Shown one piece after another: positions 1 to 14,766 of a stretch of DNA of 64,000 bases (the first letter of the stretch is position 1; each line of letters begins with the position of its first letter). This DNA comes from Haliovirga abyssi (GTDB lineage: Bacteria; Fusobacteriota; Fusobacteriia; Fusobacteriales; Haliovirgaceae). The stretch is from positions 1,236,637-1,300,636 of the forward strand of contig NZ_AP027059.1 in the NCBI RefSeq assembly GCF_030295325.1, given 5' to 3'. The notes below the pieces were generated by a model. The model made no database searches and was not told the DNA's origin. It worked only from the letters and a program-made list of their open reading frames with translations. Position numbers and translations under genes: made by a program.

Positions 1-458
1 TTTATTATAAATTTTTCATCTATTTTTTTATCTTCTTCTTTAATCTCTTCAGCTTTTAACACAGTTTCGTTATTTTTAATAACTACTCCTTTTTTCATAC
101 ACTCATTAATTAATATTTTTAAAATATCTTTTGATTTTTCAGTTTCAGGGAAAATTTTCCCATTTTTATCTACTATTATACCCATACCTCTTCTTTTAAA
201 AAAATTTATCATATCTTTATTACTAAATTCTTTAAATACTGTTTTTAAAAATTTATAATTATTTCCATAATGATTAAAAAATTCTGACATTTCACCTTCG
301 TGGGTTATATTACATCTTCCTGCACCTGCCATAAGCAACTTTTTACCAACTTTTTGATTTTTTTCAAGAATAAGAACACTCATCTCTTTTTTTATATTTA
401 TAGCAGTAAAAAGTCCAGCAGGACCACCACCTATTATTATCACATCATACTTTTCCAT
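1..458 (-). CDS. HI0933-family FAD-dependent oxidoreductase, N-terminal part (runs off the window)
   Basis: Reading leftwards from the ATG at 458 gives 152 residues with no stop before the window edge. The N-terminus has the dinucleotide-binding motif IIIGGGPAG (about residues 7-15) and then the family hallmark KKLLMAGAGRCNIT (about 39-52), which marks the HI0933/YhiN/BaiN-like flavoproteins of about 400 residues. These are predicted cytosolic FAD oxidoreductases; physiological substrates are mostly unknown. A Shine-Dalgarno (GGAGG) lies just upstream of the start. The family call is firm, the reaction is not. The missing C-terminus lies before base 1. Confidence 0.88.
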   Translation of the reverse strand, partial: MEKYDVIIIGGGPAGLFTAINIKKEMSVLILEKNQKVGKKLLMAGAGRCNITHEGEMSEFFNHYGNNYKFLKTVFKEFSNKDMINFFKRRGMGIIVDKNGKIFPETEKSKDILKILINECMKKGVVIKNNETVLKAEEIKEEDKKIDEKFII

Positions 459-477
459 TTTATCCTCCAAATTCAAT

Positions 478-506
478 AAGAGTTCTTATATAAAATTAGA
501 ACTCTT
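478..506. terminator. Inverted repeat between the flavoprotein and the next gene, possible terminator
   Basis: Perfect 9-base arms AAGAGTTCT (478-486) and AGAACTCTT (498-506) with an 11-base loop. The T-rich run follows it on the plus strand, whereas both neighbouring genes are on the minus strand, so its use as a terminator is uncertain. Confidence 0.4.
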
Positions 507-535
507 GTTTTTATTCTTTTTTATTTTCAATCTAT

Positions 536-1726
536 TTATAACTCTTCTATTTTTTCTAATTCTATCATAAAATATTCTAACTCTCCAAACACATCTACAT
601 TTTCTCGGATTATTTTAGCATAAATTCCAGGTTTATTATTAATCATCCAATATTTAACTTTCGAATCTCCATCAAATCCCTCTACAACTGTACATTCAAA
701 TTTTCCAGCTGGAACTGTAACAATTTTATTTCCTAAAATTCTATATGGATATAGCTCTTTTTCAGGAAAAAATTTATTATATATATTTGTATTTTCGTCT
801 ATATAGCTTTCGTGAATTTTCTTTTCTTCATCATTTACAATTCTAAAATCATTAAATCTTATACTTTCTTTTTCAGAATTAACCACAACCTTAGATATAA
901 CTTCACTGTATTTAAATATCCCTAATTCTTCTATTAAATCTGCTTTCCTATACTTTAATTTTTTTATATTTTTTAACTTATCTACCATTTGATAAAAATC
1001 ATTCCAAGGTAAGTCAGAATCATTTTCTTTTTCCTCATCAAAATTATCATATTTAAAATTCAATCTCTCAATTTTACTTTTTAACACTTTTTTATTAGCC
1101 TCTATTTCTTCATCTCTATTAATATTTCTTAAAATAAATTTATTTTTTGTAATAGAAATAATTTTATTCTCCCCTCTTAATATATTTGGTTGACCTATAA
1201 CTATAACAGTTTTATCTTTAGAGTTATATACCCATGTTCCTTTTGTAGTGCTACTCATCCCTTCTTCTATACTTATTAACGTAAAATTTCCTGATACATC
1301 TAATTTTAAAAAATTTATTGAGTCTTCTCCTTTTATTTCCCATACTCCATTTAAATTAGCTTTTTTATTTATATTTTCTATATTTTTATAATCAAACCTA
1401 TCATAATATAATTTTTGTTTCCCTTTCACCATTTCTAAACTATTCGTTGTTAATTTTGTTATTTTCACATTTCCATTAAAATCATTAATTTCTTTTGATT
1501 TCATAATAATTTCATTATCATTATTCCACTTCCATGTTCCTACTTTTATTCCCATATATTTCAAAATTCTATTTTTTTCAAATGTTAATATAATAAACAT
1601 CTTCTTAATATTACTACCTGTTTCTACTCTTTTCAACATCCAACTTCCTATAATATCTACCGATTGAGCATTTAATATAAATGTAAACGTTACTAAAAAC
1701 ATTATTACTATCCATTTTTTCTTCAT
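536..1726 (-). CDS. Secreted protein with two lipocalin-like repeats, function unknown
   Basis: The 396-residue product starts with a hydrophobic Sec signal (residues 4-20, cleavage probably after NAQS). Two similar segments follow: IIGSWMLK (about 25) and LNGVWEIKG (about 125), each leading into beta-strand-rich sequence ending in a GTWxY/GTWKW pattern, like the lipocalin-like 'GxW' domains of small secreted proteins. The C-terminal third (PAGKFECTVVEG about 340, then YWMINNKPG) resembles the end of DUF3108-type periplasmic proteins. A good ribosome-binding site (AGGAGGGTG) precedes the ATG. No cysteine in a lipobox, so probably periplasmic rather than a lipoprotein. Function unknown. Confidence 0.6.
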   Translation of the reverse strand: MKKKWIVIMFLVTFTFILNAQSVDIIGSWMLKRVETGSNIKKMFIILTFEKNRILKYMGIKVGTWKWNNDNEIIMKSKEINDFNGNVKITKLTTNSLEMVKGKQKLYYDRFDYKNIENINKKANLNGVWEIKGEDSINFLKLDVSGNFTLISIEEGMSSTTKGTWVYNSKDKTVIVIGQPNILRGENKIISITKNKFILRNINRDEEIEANKKVLKSKIERLNFKYDNFDEEKENDSDLPWNDFYQMVDKLKNIKKLKYRKADLIEELGIFKYSEVISKVVVNSEKESIRFNDFRIVNDEEKKIHESYIDENTNIYNKFFPEKELYPYRILGNKIVTVPAGKFECTVVEGFDGDSKVKYWMINNKPGIYAKIIRENVDVFGELEYFMIELEKIEEL

Positions 1727-1747
1727 TTCGCACCCTCCTATTTTTAT

Positions 1748-2962
1748 TTAAACGTTCTTTAATTTTGTAAAGCCATAAAAAAATATAGTTAATACAAATC
1801 CTATATAAAATATTATTTCCCAAACATTCTTAACCCCATAATTAGAAATCATAAATCCTGAAATTAATGGTGCTATTGTAAATCCAATCATATTTAAAGT
1901 ACCAAATATGCTATTAAACCTACCTCTATGAGTTATAGGTGTATGTAATGAAATATAGACTCCATAATTAGTAACGTATAATATCTCTCCTATGCTCCAT
2001 AATATTGTAGAGATAATAAATATCATTAGATTTTTATTTGCAAAATATAACATTCCAAATCCTACTGTATATAAAATAGTCCCCAAAAACATATTATAAT
2101 CTGAAGTTTTATTTTTAGTAAGTTTTAGTATATATGTTGTAAATACCACTACTACAATTGCATTTAATGACATAATATATCCAAAATATTTTCCACTATT
2201 CTTTCCAAACATCTCTGAAAACTGAATTGGAATAACAATCATATGCTGTGCATAAATAAATGTTCCTACAATATTTAATAAAACAAATACAATTAAAAAT
2301 GGTTTTTTTATTATTACTTTGAGTGAAGATTCGTCTGTCGCTTTTTCATTTCCTTTTGCATTACTTATATCTTCTGCTGTCGGAGTTGTATCTTTCACAT
2401 AAATAATTATTAAGATAGTTGCAATAAGTGTCGTTGTGCCATCTCCCCAAAATATCCAATTAACGTAATTTCTATATAATAATCCAGCTATAATTGGTCC
2501 TAGAGAAACTCCAATATTTGTGGCTAAATAAAAGAAAGAAAAAACTCTCTTTCTCTCTTCTGGAGTTGATAAATCTGTAATAATAGAATTAAATACTGGC
2601 CTTATTCCTCCTAAGAAAAAAGTTGCAATTATCAATAATATTGGTATTAGATTAGAACCATTTATAAATCCGCAACTTATTATGAATAAAGCTGAAGAAA
2701 CATATAAAATTACCAATACTTTTTTTCTTCCAAAATAATCTGCTAATTTTCCAGATATCATTGTACCTGTTATTCTACTAACTCCTACAATCGTTAATAT
2801 AATCCCTATTGCTTTTCCATTTAATTTTAAATTTTGAGTTAAGTATAACACTAAAAACAAATTTACAAAACTTCCTAATCTATTAATGATTCTCGCAACA
2901 AATAAAATATAAATCTCTTTTTTAAATCCTTTATACTCTGATGTAACTTTACTTATTCCCAT
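1748..2962 (-). CDS. MFS transporter, multidrug-exporter type
   Basis: A 404-residue integral membrane protein with about 12 hydrophobic segments and a charged central loop near residue 200. The loop between TM2 and TM3 carries GKLADYFGRKK, the classic MFS motif A (GxLaDrxGrkk), and EERKRVFSF occurs after TM4. This fits the drug:H+ antiporter type of major facilitator; the substrate cannot be read. The start is set at the ATG at 2962 because AGGAG (2971-2975) lies 8 bases upstream; an upstream in-frame GTG at 2971 overlaps that ribosome-binding site. The gene ends inside an AAACGTTC half-repeat (1748-1757). Confidence 0.82.
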   Translation of the reverse strand: MGISKVTSEYKGFKKEIYILFVARIINRLGSFVNLFLVLYLTQNLKLNGKAIGIILTIVGVSRITGTMISGKLADYFGRKKVLVILYVSSALFIISCGFINGSNLIPILLIIATFFLGGIRPVFNSIITDLSTPEERKRVFSFFYLATNIGVSLGPIIAGLLYRNYVNWIFWGDGTTTLIATILIIIYVKDTTPTAEDISNAKGNEKATDESSLKVIIKKPFLIVFVLLNIVGTFIYAQHMIVIPIQFSEMFGKNSGKYFGYIMSLNAIVVVVFTTYILKLTKNKTSDYNMFLGTILYTVGFGMLYFANKNLMIFIISTILWSIGEILYVTNYGVYISLHTPITHRGRFNSIFGTLNMIGFTIAPLISGFMISNYGVKNVWEIIFYIGFVLTIFFYGFTKLKNV

Positions 2963-3009
2963 AAAAAGCACTCCTATTTTTTTTAATATACAGTTCTAAT
3001 AAAATCATA

Positions 3010-3065
3010 AATACAAAACAAGCATATTATCTTCCAACAAGAAAATAATATGCTTGTTTTGTATT
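3010..3065. repeat. Perfect 21-bp inverted repeat between aspA and the MFS gene
   Basis: Arm 1 is 3010-3030 and arm 2 is 3045-3065, 21 of 21 bases complementary, with a 14-base loop. The stem is AT-rich with only short T stretches on either side. It could end aspA transcription but is longer than the other terminators in this window. Confidence 0.6.
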
Positions 3066-3201
3066 TATTCTACTAGAAAATCATCTAAAAATCAATAAAA
3101 AAATAGCATAGCTCATTTTTCATTAGTGTTTTCTATCCCTTTATCTTATGTTCATCTGCGTTCATCATGTGGTTTCAAGTTCTTGACTTCTAAACTGTAG
3201 C

Positions 3202-3215
3202 TTTTTAAGCCATTA
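3202..3215. repeat. Half copy of the TTTTTAAGCCATT intergenic repeat
   Basis: TTTTTAAGCCATTA lies 8 bases beyond the aspA stop codon. It matches the right arm of the palindromic repeats at 6441-6489 and 40601-40656. Just before it (about 3150-3177) is a degenerate ATCTGCGTTCATC stretch of the kind often scattered between genes of unrelated bacteria. Confidence 0.5.
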
Positions 3216-3222
3216 CTTAATT

Positions 3223-4581
3223 TCAAAATAGATTTTTCATCTCATTTTCATTTAAAATATTTTTCTCAATTATTATTTCTTTATATGTTTTCCCTTTTAT
3301 TTTGGCTTCTTTTAATATCTCTGTCAATTTATTATATCCAATTTTATCAATTAATAATGTCGCTACTGACCAGCTATTTTCTAAATAATTTCTGCAGACT
3401 TCTTCATTAGCTTTTATCCCTTTAATAACTTTTTCTGTAAATATTTTAACTCCATCTCTTAAAATTTCTAAATTTTCCAATATCAAATCTGCAATTATTG
3501 GAAACATTGCATTTAATTCAAATTCTCCATCTCCAGCAGCCATTGTAATTGCTAAATCATTCCCTACCACTTTATAATAAATTTGTTTAATAAATTCTGC
3601 TCCTACTGGATTTACCTTTCCTGGCATAATTGATGACCCTGCTTGCAATATTGGTAACTCTATCTCATTTAAACCAGCTCTTGGGCCTGAGCTCATAAGT
3701 CTTAAATCATTAGATATTTTACTTAAATTTACCGCTAAACTTTTTAAAAGCCCTGATATTTCTACAAAAACATCTAAATTTTGAGTTGAATCAATTAAAT
3801 TTTCAGCTCTTGCCATTCCAAATTCAGTTAGATTTCTAATCTCTTCTGTTATTATAAATCTATATTTTAATGGAGCTCCAACTCCTGTTCCTACAGCAGT
3901 TCCTCCAATATTTACTTGCCTAATTCTTTCTTCCATCTTATACAATCTCCACCTATCTCTCGAAATTGCCTCTGCATAACTTCCAAATTCATCCCCTAAT
4001 GTAATTGGAACAGCATCTTGTAATTGTGTTCTTCCTATTTTAAATACATTTGAAAACTGATGTTCCTTTTCTTGTAATCCTAATTGCAGTTCCATAACGT
4101 TATCAACTAATTCTCTTAATACTTTTATAGCCGCTATTTTAACAGCAGTTGGTATTACATCATTTGTAGATTGTGACATATTTATATCTTCTATTGGATT
4201 TATAAAACTATAATCTCCTTTTTCTTTTCCACTAATTTCTAATGCTACATTGGCAATAACTTCATTTGCATTCATATTAATAGAGGTTCCTGCTCCACCT
4301 TGCAAAGCACATATTTCAAAATTTTCATCTAAGATTTTTTTATCATTATAAATTTTATCACACGCTTCAATTATAATCTCATATTTTTCTTTTGATAATT
4401 TTTCTATCTTATAATTTGCATACGCTGCTGCTTTTTTTACTAATATTACAGCTTTTATTATCTCTTCTTTTACATTATGATAATTAAGTCTAAAATTATC
4501 TTTTGCTCTATATGTATGTATTCCATAATATAATTTTTCGTCTAATGATTCTTCTCCAATCAAATCTTTTTCTTTTCTCAT
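3223..4581 (-). CDS. aspA: Aspartate ammonia-lyase (aspartase)
   Basis: Deaminates L-aspartate to fumarate and ammonia. The 452-residue protein has the fumarase/aspartase superfamily signature GSSIMPGKVNP (about residue 320) and the aspartase-type sequences RTQLQDAVP (about 185; fumarase C usually has RTHLQDATP), GGAGTSINMN and SSGPRAGLNEI, so aspartase is preferred over fumarase. The ATG is preceded by AAAGGAG. It is the third gene after hydG and a small unknown gene, separated from them by a hairpin at 4618-4649. The company of hydG suggests it may feed ammonia to hydrogenase cofactor assembly as well as serving aspartate fermentation; that link is inference. Confidence 0.93.
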   Translation of the reverse strand: MRKEKDLIGEESLDEKLYYGIHTYRAKDNFRLNYHNVKEEIIKAVILVKKAAAYANYKIEKLSKEKYEIIIEACDKIYNDKKILDENFEICALQGGAGTSINMNANEVIANVALEISGKEKGDYSFINPIEDINMSQSTNDVIPTAVKIAAIKVLRELVDNVMELQLGLQEKEHQFSNVFKIGRTQLQDAVPITLGDEFGSYAEAISRDRWRLYKMEERIRQVNIGGTAVGTGVGAPLKYRFIITEEIRNLTEFGMARAENLIDSTQNLDVFVEISGLLKSLAVNLSKISNDLRLMSSGPRAGLNEIELPILQAGSSIMPGKVNPVGAEFIKQIYYKVVGNDLAITMAAGDGEFELNAMFPIIADLILENLEILRDGVKIFTEKVIKGIKANEEVCRNYLENSWSVATLLIDKIGYNKLTEILKEAKIKGKTYKEIIIEKNILNENEMKNLF

Positions 4582-10359: not shown

Positions 10360-10599
10360 TTAATGCACTTTATATTTCAATTTTTCTATCTCATCAACTG
10401 ATAATCCTGTTGAAGTTGAAATTATTTTTATATCTATTCCATTTTTTAATAATTCTATTGCTATTTCTACTTTTTCTCTATTTTTCCCTTGCTCTATTCC
10501 TCGCTCGATTCCTTGTTCGATTCCTTGTTCGATTCCTTGTTCGATTCCTTGCTCTATTCCAACTTGATATATATTTGTCATTTCCATCGTTATACCCAT
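10360..10599 (-). CDS. Predicted internal short product (RpnS-like antitoxin) of Rpn copy A
   Basis: Within copy A, in the same frame, an ATG at 10599 is preceded by GGAGGTGA (10607-10614), eight bases complementary to the 16S rRNA 3' end and 7 bases from the ATG. This is a stronger site than that of most genes here. Starting there gives a 79-residue protein: MGITMEMTNIYQVG, then six GIEQ/GIER-type repeats and the C-terminal helix region. In known Rpn systems the separately translated C-terminal part inhibits the full-length nuclease. The internal site is seen; its use is inference. Confidence 0.6.
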   Translation of the reverse strand: MGITMEMTNIYQVGIEQGIEQGIEQGIEQGIERGIEQGKNREKVEIAIELLKNGIDIKIISTSTGLSVDEIEKLKYKVH

Positions 10600-11304
10600 T
10601 TGTTCTTCACCTCCAGTTAGCCTTTTTACCTCATCTTCATATTCTAATTCCAATTCTTTTGGTAAATACAATAGACTATCTAAAAATTTAAATATTTTCT
10701 CTATTTTTTCTCTTTTATATCCTTTTTTCAATAATAATTTAGTTAATTGATATTTGAATTTTAATCTATCTAATTCTTTACCTTCACTTTTTATTGTATA
10801 TAATCCTGCTAATACTACCATTGCAAATGGATTATTACTTTTTATCAATTCTTCTTCTCTTTGTTTTAATATTTTATAAGATATATATTCATACCTTAAT
10901 TTTGTTCTATAAAATTCATATTCAAATATATTTGGTTCATAATCTTTTCTACTATCTGTAAATATTGATAATGCTACTATCTTTTTATTATATTTATCAT
11001 ATATTCTATAAAAATATTTGAACATTCTTTCACTAAACTCTTTTTCGTAATATCCTTGTATTTCTACATGAATTAATATCCAATTTTCCTCTCCTGTTTT
11101 CATATAAACTTTTACAATTCTATCTGCATATCTTTGCTCTTTTCTTGTCTTTTGAAATATACCTGACACCTCTTTATCCAAAAATTCATAGCCTCTTTCA
11201 AAATCTATATTGGGATACAGATCTGTCATAAAAAAACTTACAAATTCTTCAAATAAATCTTCTATTATCTCTTTCCATAATATATCTGGCATATATTTTT
11301 TCAT
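10360..11304 (-). CDS. Rpn-family PD-(D/E)XK nuclease, full-length form, tandem copy A
   Basis: A 314-residue member of the Rpn (recombination-promoting nuclease / YhgA-like) family. The nuclease core has D61 and the E81-x-Q83 motif (HVEIQG) in the usual order. After the core, a helical region ends in GIEQ-type four-residue repeats (about 240-270) and a C-terminal helix-turn-helix-like tail (ISTSTGLSVDEIEKL). Rpn proteins of enteric bacteria are DNA-cutting toxins that act against phage and are blocked by a small protein translated from the 3' end of the same gene; copy A has the matching internal start (10599). It is a near-identical neighbour of copy B, with its own AAGGAG before the ATG. 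Confidence 0.85.
   Translation of the reverse strand: MKKYMPDILWKEIIEDLFEEFVSFFMTDLYPNIDFERGYEFLDKEVSGIFQKTRKEQRYADRIVKVYMKTGEENWILIHVEIQGYYEKEFSERMFKYFYRIYDKYNKKIVALSIFTDSRKDYEPNIFEYEFYRTKLRYEYISYKILKQREEELIKSNNPFAMVVLAGLYTIKSEGKELDRLKFKYQLTKLLLKKGYKREKIEKIFKFLDSLLYLPKELELEYEDEVKRLTGGEEQMGITMEMTNIYQVGIEQGIEQGIEQGIEQGIERGIEQGKNREKVEIAIELLKNGIDIKIISTSTGLSVDEIEKLKYKVH
10487..10558 (-). repeat. 12-bp coding minisatellite in Rpn copy A (six units)
   Basis: Six head-to-tail units of consensus CCTTGYTCKATT, each encoding one GIEQ or GIER step. Copy B has five units (11523-11582). The number of units is the only length difference between the two proteins. Confidence 0.9.
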
Positions 11305-11395: not shown

Positions 11396-11623
11396 TTAAT
11401 GTACTTTATATTTCAATTTTTCTATCTCATCAACTGATAATCCTGTTGAAGTTGAAATTATTTTTATATCTATTCCATTTTTTAATAATTCTATTGCTAT
11501 TTCTACTTTTTCTCTATTTTTCCCTTGCTCTATCCCTTGCTCTATTCCTCGCTCTATTCCTTGTTCGATTCCTTGCTCTATTCCAACTTGATATATATTT
11601 GTCATTTCCATTGTTATACCCAT
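11396..11623 (-). CDS. Predicted internal short product (RpnS-like antitoxin) of Rpn copy B
   Basis: Same arrangement as in copy A: GGAGGTGA (11631-11638) followed after 7 bases by an in-frame ATG at 11623. The predicted product is 75 residues with five GIEQ-type repeats. The ribosome-binding site and the ATG are kept unchanged although nearby third positions differ between copies. Confidence 0.6.
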   Translation of the reverse strand: MGITMEMTNIYQVGIEQGIEQGIERGIEQGIEQGKNREKVEIAIELLKNGIDIKIISTSTGLSVDEIEKLKYKVH

Positions 11624-12328
11624 TTGTTCTTCACCTCCAGTTAGCCTTTTCACCTCATCTTCATATTCTAATTCCAATTCTTTTGGTAAATACAATAGAC
11701 TATCTAAAAATTTAAATATTTTCTCTATTTTTTCTCTTTTATATCCTTTTTTCAATAATAATTTAGTTAATTGATATTTGAATTTTAATCTATCTAATTC
11801 TTTACCTTCACTTTTTATTGTATATAATCCTGCTAATACTACCATTGCAAATGGATTATTACTTTTTATCAATTCTTCTTCTCTTTGTTTTAATATTTTA
11901 TAAGATATATATTCATACCTTAATTTTGTTCTATAAAATTCATATTCAAATATATTTGGTTCATAACCTTTTCTACTATCTGTAAATATTGATAATGCTA
12001 CTATCTTTTTATTATATTTATCATATATTCTATAAAAATATTTGAACATTCTTTCACTAAACTCTTTTTCATAATATCCTTGTATTTCTATATGAATTAA
12101 TATCCAATTTTCCTCTCCGGTTTTCATATAAACTTTCACTATTCTATCTGCATATCTTTGCTCTTTTCTTGTCTTTTGAAATATACCTGACACCTCTTTA
12201 TCCAAAAATTCATAGCCTCTTTCAAAATCTATATTGGGATACAGATCTGTCATAAAAAAACTTACAAATTCTTCAAATAAATCTTCTATTATCTCTTTCC
12301 ATAATATATCTGGCATATATTTTTTCAT
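11396..12328 (-). CDS. Rpn-family PD-(D/E)XK nuclease, full-length form, tandem copy B
   Basis: The 310-residue product is nearly identical to copy A, differing by one four-residue repeat and isolated substitutions (for example V80I and D/G after TDSRK). D61 and E81-x-Q83 are intact, so both copies could be active. The duplication also covers the ribosome-binding site and about 20 bases upstream, and ends at the stop codon. Between the copies are about 90 AT-rich bases. The very small divergence means recent duplication or ongoing gene conversion. Its internal start is at 11623. Confidence 0.85.
   Translation of the reverse strand: MKKYMPDILWKEIIEDLFEEFVSFFMTDLYPNIDFERGYEFLDKEVSGIFQKTRKEQRYADRIVKVYMKTGEENWILIHIEIQGYYEKEFSERMFKYFYRIYDKYNKKIVALSIFTDSRKGYEPNIFEYEFYRTKLRYEYISYKILKQREEELIKSNNPFAMVVLAGLYTIKSEGKELDRLKFKYQLTKLLLKKGYKREKIEKIFKFLDSLLYLPKELELEYEDEVKRLTGGEEQMGITMEMTNIYQVGIEQGIEQGIERGIEQGIEQGKNREKVEIAIELLKNGIDIKIISTSTGLSVDEIEKLKYKVH
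11523..11582 (-). repeat. 12-bp coding minisatellite in Rpn copy B (five units)
   Basis: Five units of the same 12-base consensus as in copy A, in a different order of the variants (TTGCTC, TCGCTC, TTGTTC). Confidence 0.9.
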
Positions 12329-13225: not shown

Positions 13226-14509
13226 TTATTTTTTTAATTTTTCATAAAATAAATTAATCTTATCATCACTAAATCCAAGTTCTTTAGACAAATACTCATA
13301 TCCATCTTTATTAAACTTTTGTTCTAGACTATTAATTTTTATTTTATATAAATTTTCTAAAGAATATTTTAATAATTTTATATTTCTATATTCTCCCATT
13401 CCTACATCGTTTGTTTTGTCATAATCAGAAGATATTTCGCCCCAATCAGCTCCCATAAAAGATTCTATAACCGCTGTTACAACTCCGGTTCTATCACTTC
13501 CCAATCTACAATGTATTAAAAATGGTGGTTCTTTTTCTATTATAAAATTTACAACTTTTTTCATTAATTCTTTAAAATTCTCTGTATCAGAACCATAATA
13601 TACGATACTATATTTTGTCTTTGCAAGTAACACATTTTTTTCATCTAAAATAGTTTTATAAAATTTGGTAATTCTTGGATCGTTAGATATCTCTTCTCCA
13701 TCAGTTAAATTTATAATTGATTTTATTTGGTTTTTTTTCATTAATTCCTGAACCTTTTCCATTCTCAACTGTTCTTGTTTTGATTTTTTTGGATCTGTTT
13801 TTCTAGATGGAATAAAAGGGTGATAACTTCTATATAATGTTTTTTCTTTAATATTTCCAGTTGAAACTTCTCTAAAATTTGCTTGTTCATAATCTGAAAT
13901 ATATTTTGATTTTATTATTCTGCTAATTTTATCATTTTTTGCTATTACATCTTTATTATCTCCATCAAATAAAATAACATAATTGTACATATCTGCCCAT
14001 TGATCATTAAATTTATAGCCTACTTCTAATTTATCAGATGGTTTTACCCAAGCTTCAGTAGGTCTGCTTCTTCCTTTTCTTTGATAAGTACCTTCTAAAT
14101 AGAATGCAAATTCAGGTTGCCCAGAATTTCCAGGAATTGCTATATCAGTAATTTTTTTCTTCAAAAACCAAACATTATTTTTTGTAGATTTACTCATTTC
14201 CCACTTATCATTTGGTTTCCAATTATTAAAGCTTCCTGCTAAACTCACTGTAGATATTGTTGTATCTTTTTTTAATGATTTCTCTAAATTTTCTTTATTT
14301 GCAGACATATCAAAAACAAAAACTACATTCGATTTATCGAAAAAATATCCTTTTAACTTTGTTGAATTATCCAATTTCATCTTGTCATATTTGCTATAAC
14401 TATTTCCCTTGATATTTTTCTTAACCTCATTTTTTAAACTTTTTTTAGAAATTCCAGTACAACCCAGCAGTAGAAATAAAACAGTAAATAAAACTATACT
14501 TTTTTTCAT
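13226..14509 (-). CDS. Lipoprotein with a glycogen-binding (CBM48/AMPK-like) domain and a tyrosine-phosphatase domain
   Basis: The 427-residue product begins with a lipoprotein signal (lipobox LLLGC, Cys17). Residues about 87-146 contain VSLAGSFNNW and later FAFYLEGTYQ, the pattern of the AMPK-beta/CBM48 glycogen-binding beta-sandwich. The C-terminal half is a cysteine phosphatase of the PTP/DSP fold with the P-loop HCRLGSDRTG (Cys334, Arg340; CX5R intact), preceded by SIINLTDGEE, as in bacterial protein tyrosine phosphatases. The start is the ATG at 14509 (GAGGTGG just upstream), not the in-frame GTG at 14521. The combination recalls the glucan phosphatases laforin and SEX4. Substrate unknown; the lipoprotein signal places it outside the cytoplasm. 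Confidence 0.75.
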   Translation of the reverse strand: MKKSIVLFTVLFLLLGCTGISKKSLKNEVKKNIKGNSYSKYDKMKLDNSTKLKGYFFDKSNVVFVFDMSANKENLEKSLKKDTTISTVSLAGSFNNWKPNDKWEMSKSTKNNVWFLKKKITDIAIPGNSGQPEFAFYLEGTYQRKGRSRPTEAWVKPSDKLEVGYKFNDQWADMYNYVILFDGDNKDVIAKNDKISRIIKSKYISDYEQANFREVSTGNIKEKTLYRSYHPFIPSRKTDPKKSKQEQLRMEKVQELMKKNQIKSIINLTDGEEISNDPRITKFYKTILDEKNVLLAKTKYSIVYYGSDTENFKELMKKVVNFIIEKEPPFLIHCRLGSDRTGVVTAVIESFMGADWGEISSDYDKTNDVGMGEYRNIKLLKYSLENLYKIKINSLEQKFNKDGYEYLSKELGFSDDKINLFYEKLKK

Positions 14510-14714
14510 TTTCCACCTCACATTTTTTGTTTTTAATAATTTAATCGTTTAACTAGAAAAACTATTTCTTGTAATTTAGGCAGGTACAGACCAATGTCGT
14601 CAAGATAAGAATTTTATAAAATCTCTACTCCTTCCTTGTTGTCGTTTTCTCTTATCTATGAGAAAACTATTGCATGGATATTTGGCTTTTTTGCATTCAC
14701 TCTAATCTCTCCCT

Positions 14715-14742
14715 GTAAGGGCAATTCATGAATTGCCCCTAC
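14715..14742. repeat. Palindromic GGGCAATTCATGAATTGCCC element in a 257-base intergenic region
   Basis: A perfect 20-base palindrome (14719-14738) flanked by GTA/TAC. It lies between the thrS stop and the phosphatase lipoprotein gene. The rest of this gap (14510-14714) is less AT-rich than other gaps here and includes TCTCTTATCTATGAGA; I see no gene in it. The palindrome may act as a terminator for thrS. Confidence 0.65.
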
Positions 14743-14766
14743 ATAAATTTTAATTTTTTCATAGCA

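Follow-up and report, generated by a model that had tools for sequence, protein, structure and literature searches.

The glucan phosphatase SEX4 is a plastid enzyme in which a DSP domain comes first and a CBM48/AMPK-type module follows; a carbohydrate-binding module is not universal among glucan phosphatases, LSF2 being without one. Laforin consists of a CBM20 module and a DSP domain (PMC12834914) and, like SEX4, is a member of the DSP clade (PMC9254107; PMC12834914); laforin-type DSPs use an upstream D-loop Asp (PMC9254107). Gentry and Pace (2009) found each of the two domains in bacteria and archaea but no protein with both, and considered a bacterial glucan phosphatase unlikely (PMC2714694). 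As late as 2025, laforin was described as the sole known glycogen phosphatase (PMC12834914), and PMC13011383 asks if bacterial glycogen carries any phosphate. Among the papers searched, none of later date describes a bacterial glucan phosphatase. Here we describe a lipoprotein of Haliovirga abyssi that we regard as a probable counterpart of laforin in bacteria, by which we mean that it works like laforin and not that it is a laforin.

The protein is encoded on the minus strand at 13226..14509 of the window (the whole 64,000-nucleotide stretch of contig NZ_AP027059.1 analyzed here), as the original prediction had placed it. The ORF is real. It runs from an ATG at 14509, preceded by a ribosome-binding-site-like GAGGTGG (14510..14520, minus strand), to a stop at 13226, and its 427-aa product is supported by Pfam and by relatives. 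The N-terminus, MKKSIVLFTVLFLLLGC, matches the lipobox pattern, with a signal peptide and lipobox (LLLG/C17, Thr at +2; 14459..14509, minus strand), and lipidation is predicted from this match. A glucan-binding-type module follows (residues 54-181; 13967..14350, minus strand), delimited by conservation and by profile and fold searches; on the same strand it contains VSLAGSFNNW (residues 88-97, with FNNW at 94-97), GNSG (127-130), and GYKFNDQ (164-170). The C-terminal half is a Y_phosphatase3 domain (PF13350; residues 218-425; 13235..13858, minus strand). Within it, alignment reveals a family motif, LYRSYHPFIPS (residues 225-235; 13805..13837, minus strand), of which RSYHP is invariant, and the phosphate-binding loop HCRLGSDRTG (residues 333-342; 13484..13513, minus strand) includes Cys334 as nucleophile, Asp339, and Arg340. 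The original prediction of a glycogen-binding-type module joined to a Cys phosphatase with an intact loop in a lipoprotein was borne out, and the domain pair with its intact loop is almost certainly present in one protein.

The neighbors of the gene are thrS and a Bax1-I gene, with no alpha-glucan genes adjoining, and Rfam returned no match around it. Base composition gave no signal of foreign origin (G+C 25.3% versus 26.7 +/- 3.6% for the window genes), and a phage origin was without support, no relative being present in the viral contigs or phages searched. A 30-base near-perfect palindrome (TGTAAGGGCAATTCA/TGAATTGCCCCTACA; 14714-14743) lies between thrS and the phosphatase gene; it occurs once within the window and has no Rfam match. 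A terminator and a dispersed palindrome are both possible identities. Elsewhere in the window, two tandem, nearly identical minus-strand ORFs of 314 and 310 aa (10360-11304 and 11396-12328) differ chiefly in how many EQGI repeats they carry close to the C-terminus and probably represent a recent tandem duplication. Neither has a Pfam match at 1e-4, and both resemble what we take to be Rpn/PD-(D/E)XK transposase-family proteins.

The PF13350 match of the window protein is strong (E = 4e-17, 63.4 bits against a curated cut-off of 22.2), and all 15 homologues match the same family. PF13350 is also its best family, DSPc matching at 3.3e-4 and 20.9 bits, under the cut-off of 33.5; NCBIfam has no model for the protein. 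By sequence, the closest solved structures are 8dhi and MptpB/PtpB (1ywf). The CX5R loop is intact, and HCRLGSDRT is identical in 15/15 homologues. In the MptpB/LipA ALP family the loop signature is HCXXGKDR, in which the Asp is required for catalysis and the Lys for phosphoinositide binding (PMC3091653). The two-domain proteins depart from this signature with HCRLGSDR, having Ser for Lys in all 15 members while retaining the Asp, whereas control PF13350 proteins (L002-L004) from the same phylum as the window genome do have GKDR. Phosphoinositides are therefore not the expected substrate, and the retained Asp suggests that catalysis should be intact. Judged from these sequence features, the phosphatase groups within the PTP superfamily with the bacterial MptpB/LipA proteins, outside the laforin/SEX4 DSPs, so that its likeness to laforin would be convergent. 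Membership of the laforin/SEX4 lineage, as originally suggested, is thus unsupported, given a Y_phosphatase3 domain with a GSDRT loop and a laforin module that is CBM20 and not CBM48/AMPK-type.

Evidence for the identity of the N-terminal module is more diffuse. The window protein matched CBM_48 (PF02922) at E = 0.09-0.11 (13.3-13.6 bits, below the cut-off of 22.4), and the module alone never passed a curated CBM48 or AMPK1_CBM cut-off. AMPK1_CBM (PF16561) matched 7 of 14 homologous N-domains in Pfam searches (best 3.4e-4), and the first six PDB matches of the N-domain profile were alpha-amylase 8dge/8dl1 (two chains, E = 0.0012), three AMPK-beta CBM chains, and SusF. An AlphaFold job with two sequences, the N-domain of Photobacterium marinum first and that of the window protein second, gave a model of low confidence (pLDDT 57, pTM 0.48) whose strand pattern is compatible with an E-set domain; a single-sequence structure model of the whole window protein reached pLDDT 36. 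The Foldseek list for the low-confidence N-domain model was rich in branching enzymes (best TMq 0.55) and included AMPK-beta CBM, GlgX, limit dextrinase, and pullulanase, along with fungal immunomodulatory and Ig-type domains; none of these fold matches reached E <= 0.001. The N-domain had been expected to match CBM48/AMPK folds, and it did not fail to do so, weak matches to them being enriched, but none was obtained at E <= 0.001 and the model itself is of pLDDT 57. Alignment by hhalign of the N-domain profile with the CBM48 part of neighboring GlgX proteins gave nothing over control segments, and an N-domain profile search found no second copy in the window genome. Residues G92, W97, N128, S129, G130, E133, G164, F167, N168, Q170, and N176 are invariant in 15 members, and we know of no CBM48 or AMPK-beta family with the motifs GNSGxxE and GYxFNxQ. 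These lines of evidence converge, no single match being decisive, and while not conclusive they make it very probable that the module is a glucan-binding one of CBM48/AMPK type.

A genome scan using the single window protein as query found no relative. A tblastn search of plasmid records identified one two-domain relative in Photobacterium sp. DA100, on its 2.1-Mb replicon (29% identical over residues 87-384, at E = 1e-31), and a second was found in P. marinum. Among 330 Vibrionaceae genomes searched, 17 had a match across both domains and one further genome had a broken fragment (G184). One of the 17 (G166; L039/L029) has in-frame stops near the N-terminus within an otherwise intact cluster and looks like a recent pseudogene. 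Another candidate (G386/L032) was rejected: it is an ordinary PF13350-type phosphatase whose loop reads HCAGGKDRTG, and the module is absent. Approximately 1,160 further genomes, in three partly overlapping samples drawn from the order, class, and phylum to which Vibrionaceae belong, added one new member only (G917), and of 98 genomes searched in the phylum of H. abyssi, the window genome alone had the two-domain protein. Since the family-profile searches covered Vibrionaceae, its order, class, and phylum, and the window's phylum, these occurrences are a minimum. None of the orthologues found has a known activity of another kind.

The relatives begin at or near MHY, without a signal peptide; the DA100 ORF has a GTG start that would give LCGC, situated upstream of where the conserved start lies. 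The 15 aligned members were 30-36% identical to the window protein, and invariant residues of the phosphatase half comprised ANFR, RSYHP, SR, HCRLGSDRTG, TN, and GE. Ordinary PF13350-type proteins align with the phosphatase half only. The invariant residues in both halves indicate that module and phosphatase have been kept together over a large distance. In the family tree the window protein lies beyond all the Vibrionaceae members, at the end of a very long branch, and the tree therefore gives no direction for any transfer.

Inspection of 18 Vibrionaceae loci showed an alpha-glucan (maltodextrin/glycogen) cluster around the two-domain gene in 17 of them, two of the 18 (L012 and L081) being near-identical. 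The genes are arranged in the order LysR, GH13a, two-domain phosphatase, GlgX, LamB maltoporin, MalM, and GH13c, often with GlgA close by. The GlgX protein combines CBM48 and GH13 and scores above the TIGR02100 cut-off; GH13a is TreC/oligo-glucosidase-like, scoring above the cut-off for the PRK10933 subfamily (646 versus 535) but below that for the TIGR02403 equivalog (722 versus 799). The presence of LamB and MalM suggests that maltodextrin is taken up. In L033, the most diverged locus, GlgX, LamB, MalM, and GH13c are retained in a changed order. Some clusters are partial, L078 being a short contig and L080 lacking GlgX and GH13c over the stretch read, and L034 is the sole locus without an alpha-glucan cluster. 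The link to alpha-glucans implied by the original prediction is much strengthened by these clusters, and we regard a functional connection of the family with alpha-glucan metabolism as highly likely.

The genome of H. abyssi itself contains 27 Alpha-amylase stretches in ~19 genes; counted at equal settings it has 19 GH13 stretches, the highest of the 98 genomes of the phylum, the next having 18. Seven of these GH13 genes encode lipoboxes (six of them by pattern match; that of L062, with an unsure start codon, was recognized by eye), and three more have a signal sequence. Domains in the host GH13 proteins include pullulanase-associated PUD, CBM48, X25, and glucodextranase C, and glycogen phosphorylase is also encoded. 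The lipoprotein and secreted GH13 proteins suggest that the host is equipped to degrade alpha-glucan outside the cytoplasm, the compartment in which a lipoprotein glucan phosphatase would be rightly placed. The apparent paradox raised at the outset, that glycogen is absent outside the cytoplasm, is therefore weak. Some of these loci have features of their own. A lipoprotein alpha-amylase with a PUD module (L055, own genome C1:1404000-1409500; 360-3629, minus strand) carries a C-terminal transglutaminase-like core domain (4.3e-19), an uncommon fusion. A 943-aa secreted alpha-amylase (L060, C1:2169000-2174500; 1592-4420, minus strand) has several N-terminal repeats of a GSFNGW-type, X25-like module, and ~0.9 kb beside glgB (L069, C1:1383500-1388500) reads as N.

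By a narrow preference over all else, we take the window protein to be an alpha-glucan-targeted phosphatase whose substrate is phosphate on an alpha-glucan polymer or long maltodextrin. The CBM48/AMPK-type module would dock on starch, glycogen, or long maltodextrin, and the Y_phosphatase3 domain would cleave phosphate monoesters on the glucan in the customary two steps, in which Cys334 would act as nucleophile and form a phospho-cysteine intermediate, Arg340 would bind the phosphate, and the loop Asp339 would be the likely acid. Glucan binding and the substrate are inferred from the evidence above, and the catalytic role of Asp339 from analogy with MptpB (PMC3091653). Phosphate removal ahead of the amylases would let amylases, debranching enzymes, and phosphorylase pass phosphorylated residues. 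In the window genome the enzyme would be lipid-anchored and extracytoplasmic, alongside amylases and pullulanases that are lipoproteins or secreted; the Photobacterium enzyme would be cytoplasmic, within the maltodextrin/glycogen cluster. We favor this reading because the phosphatase domain is secure and its loop identical in the 15 homologues; because the AMPK1_CBM, PDB-profile, and fold-search matches of the module point to alpha-glucan proteins, and FNxW Trp97 and Asn176 are invariant; because the cluster recurs in 17/18 Vibrionaceae loci; because the host is rich in GH13, with lipoprotein or secreted GH13 proteins and glycogen phosphorylase; and because the loop is without the Lys needed by MptpB/LipA phosphoinositide phosphatases. 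Against it stand the sub-threshold scores of the module, the negative hhalign comparison with GlgX CBM48, the poor predicted structure, the position of the window gene away from alpha-glucan genes, the clusterless L034, and the difference in compartment, extracytoplasmic here versus cytoplasmic in Photobacterium; in addition, bacterial and marine alpha-glucans may carry too little phosphate to matter (PMC13011383).

The same evidence bears on three other readings. The module might dock the enzyme on glucan while the substrate is a phosphorylated protein, such as a glycogen- or starch-associated enzyme or a transporter. Animals have protein phosphatases that are targeted to glycogen, the domain is named for a tyrosine phosphatase family, and PTP-superfamily relatives often act on proteins; moreover, the module is of the type by which AMPK-beta targets a protein-modifying enzyme to glycogen, and a protein substrate would suit the cytoplasmic Photobacterium enzyme encoded beside GlgX and GH13. 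However, the window copy is an extracytoplasmic lipoprotein, where ATP-driven protein phosphorylation is unlikely, and the loop has the MptpB-group form with Asp (DRT), unlike the classical PTP loop, so we consider a protein substrate unlikely, if still worth weighing. A substrate among the small phosphosugars of the same pathway (maltodextrin phosphates, trehalose 6-phosphate, or similar), with a module that binds short dextrins or merely stabilizes the protein, would agree with the TreC-like GH13a neighbor in Photobacterium (above the PRK10933 and below the TIGR02403 cut-off) and with the uptake of maltodextrin indicated by LamB and MalM. This too we consider improbable, since a polysaccharide-binding module would be needless in a small-sugar phosphatase and the window copy is lipid-anchored and extracytoplasmic.

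The N-domain could instead be a beta-sandwich that does not bind glucan, the protein being a general extracytoplasmic phosphatase (of phosphotyrosine, phytate, or lipid, or for phosphate scavenging) and the Photobacterium linkage incidental. Although the isolated module scores sub-threshold, hhalign shows no link to GlgX CBM48, and the window neighbors are unrelated to glucans, such a reading is quite improbable in view of a cluster that recurs in 17 of 18 loci despite sequence divergence, the consistent alpha-glucan matches from sequence and fold searches with the invariant FNxW Trp, and the GH13-rich host. Returning to the alpha-glucan-targeted phosphatase, its fuller form is a glucan phosphatase that arose independently in bacteria through fusion of an AMPK/CBM48-type module with an MptpB-like phosphatase, acting in the cytoplasm within the maltodextrin/glycogen system of Photobacterium and, as an extracytoplasmic lipoprotein in the GH13-rich H. 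abyssi genome of a different phylum, dephosphorylating environmental starch or glycogen; we hold this tentatively, at somewhat less than an even chance. If it is true, phosphorylated alpha-glucan matters in bacterial metabolism. The bacterial domain pair absent from the survey of Gentry and Pace is now seen as a small gene family. Its gene order with GlgX, maltoporin, and amylases is conserved in Photobacterium, which can be cultured, so that the question of bacterial glycogen phosphorylation becomes directly testable. If active, the enzyme would represent a third, convergent route to the class of enzyme whose absence leads to Lafora disease, and might be of use in starch processing.

Compared with known systems, the N-module shares with CBM48 and AMPK-beta modules the FNxW motif, the strand pattern, and weak sequence and fold matches, but it falls below their curated cut-offs and has motifs of its own (GNSGxxE and GYxFNxQ). 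The phosphatase shares the loop Asp and Arg with MptpB/LipA-type atypical phosphatases, from which it differs in the Ser for Lys, the additional N-terminal module, and the alpha-glucan cluster of its relatives. As in SEX4 of plants and green algae, a CX5R phosphatase is joined to a beta-sandwich, here a putative starch-binding one and in the reverse order. Unlike laforin of animals and some protists, the window protein has a CBM48/AMPK-like module, a Y_phosphatase3 domain, and an Asp in the loop, and is a bacterial lipoprotein, so that the two are convergent at best; they nevertheless have the same domain order, with the carbohydrate-binding module (putative in the window protein) ahead of the CX5R phosphatase in one chain, and likely share a job on phosphorylated alpha-glucan.
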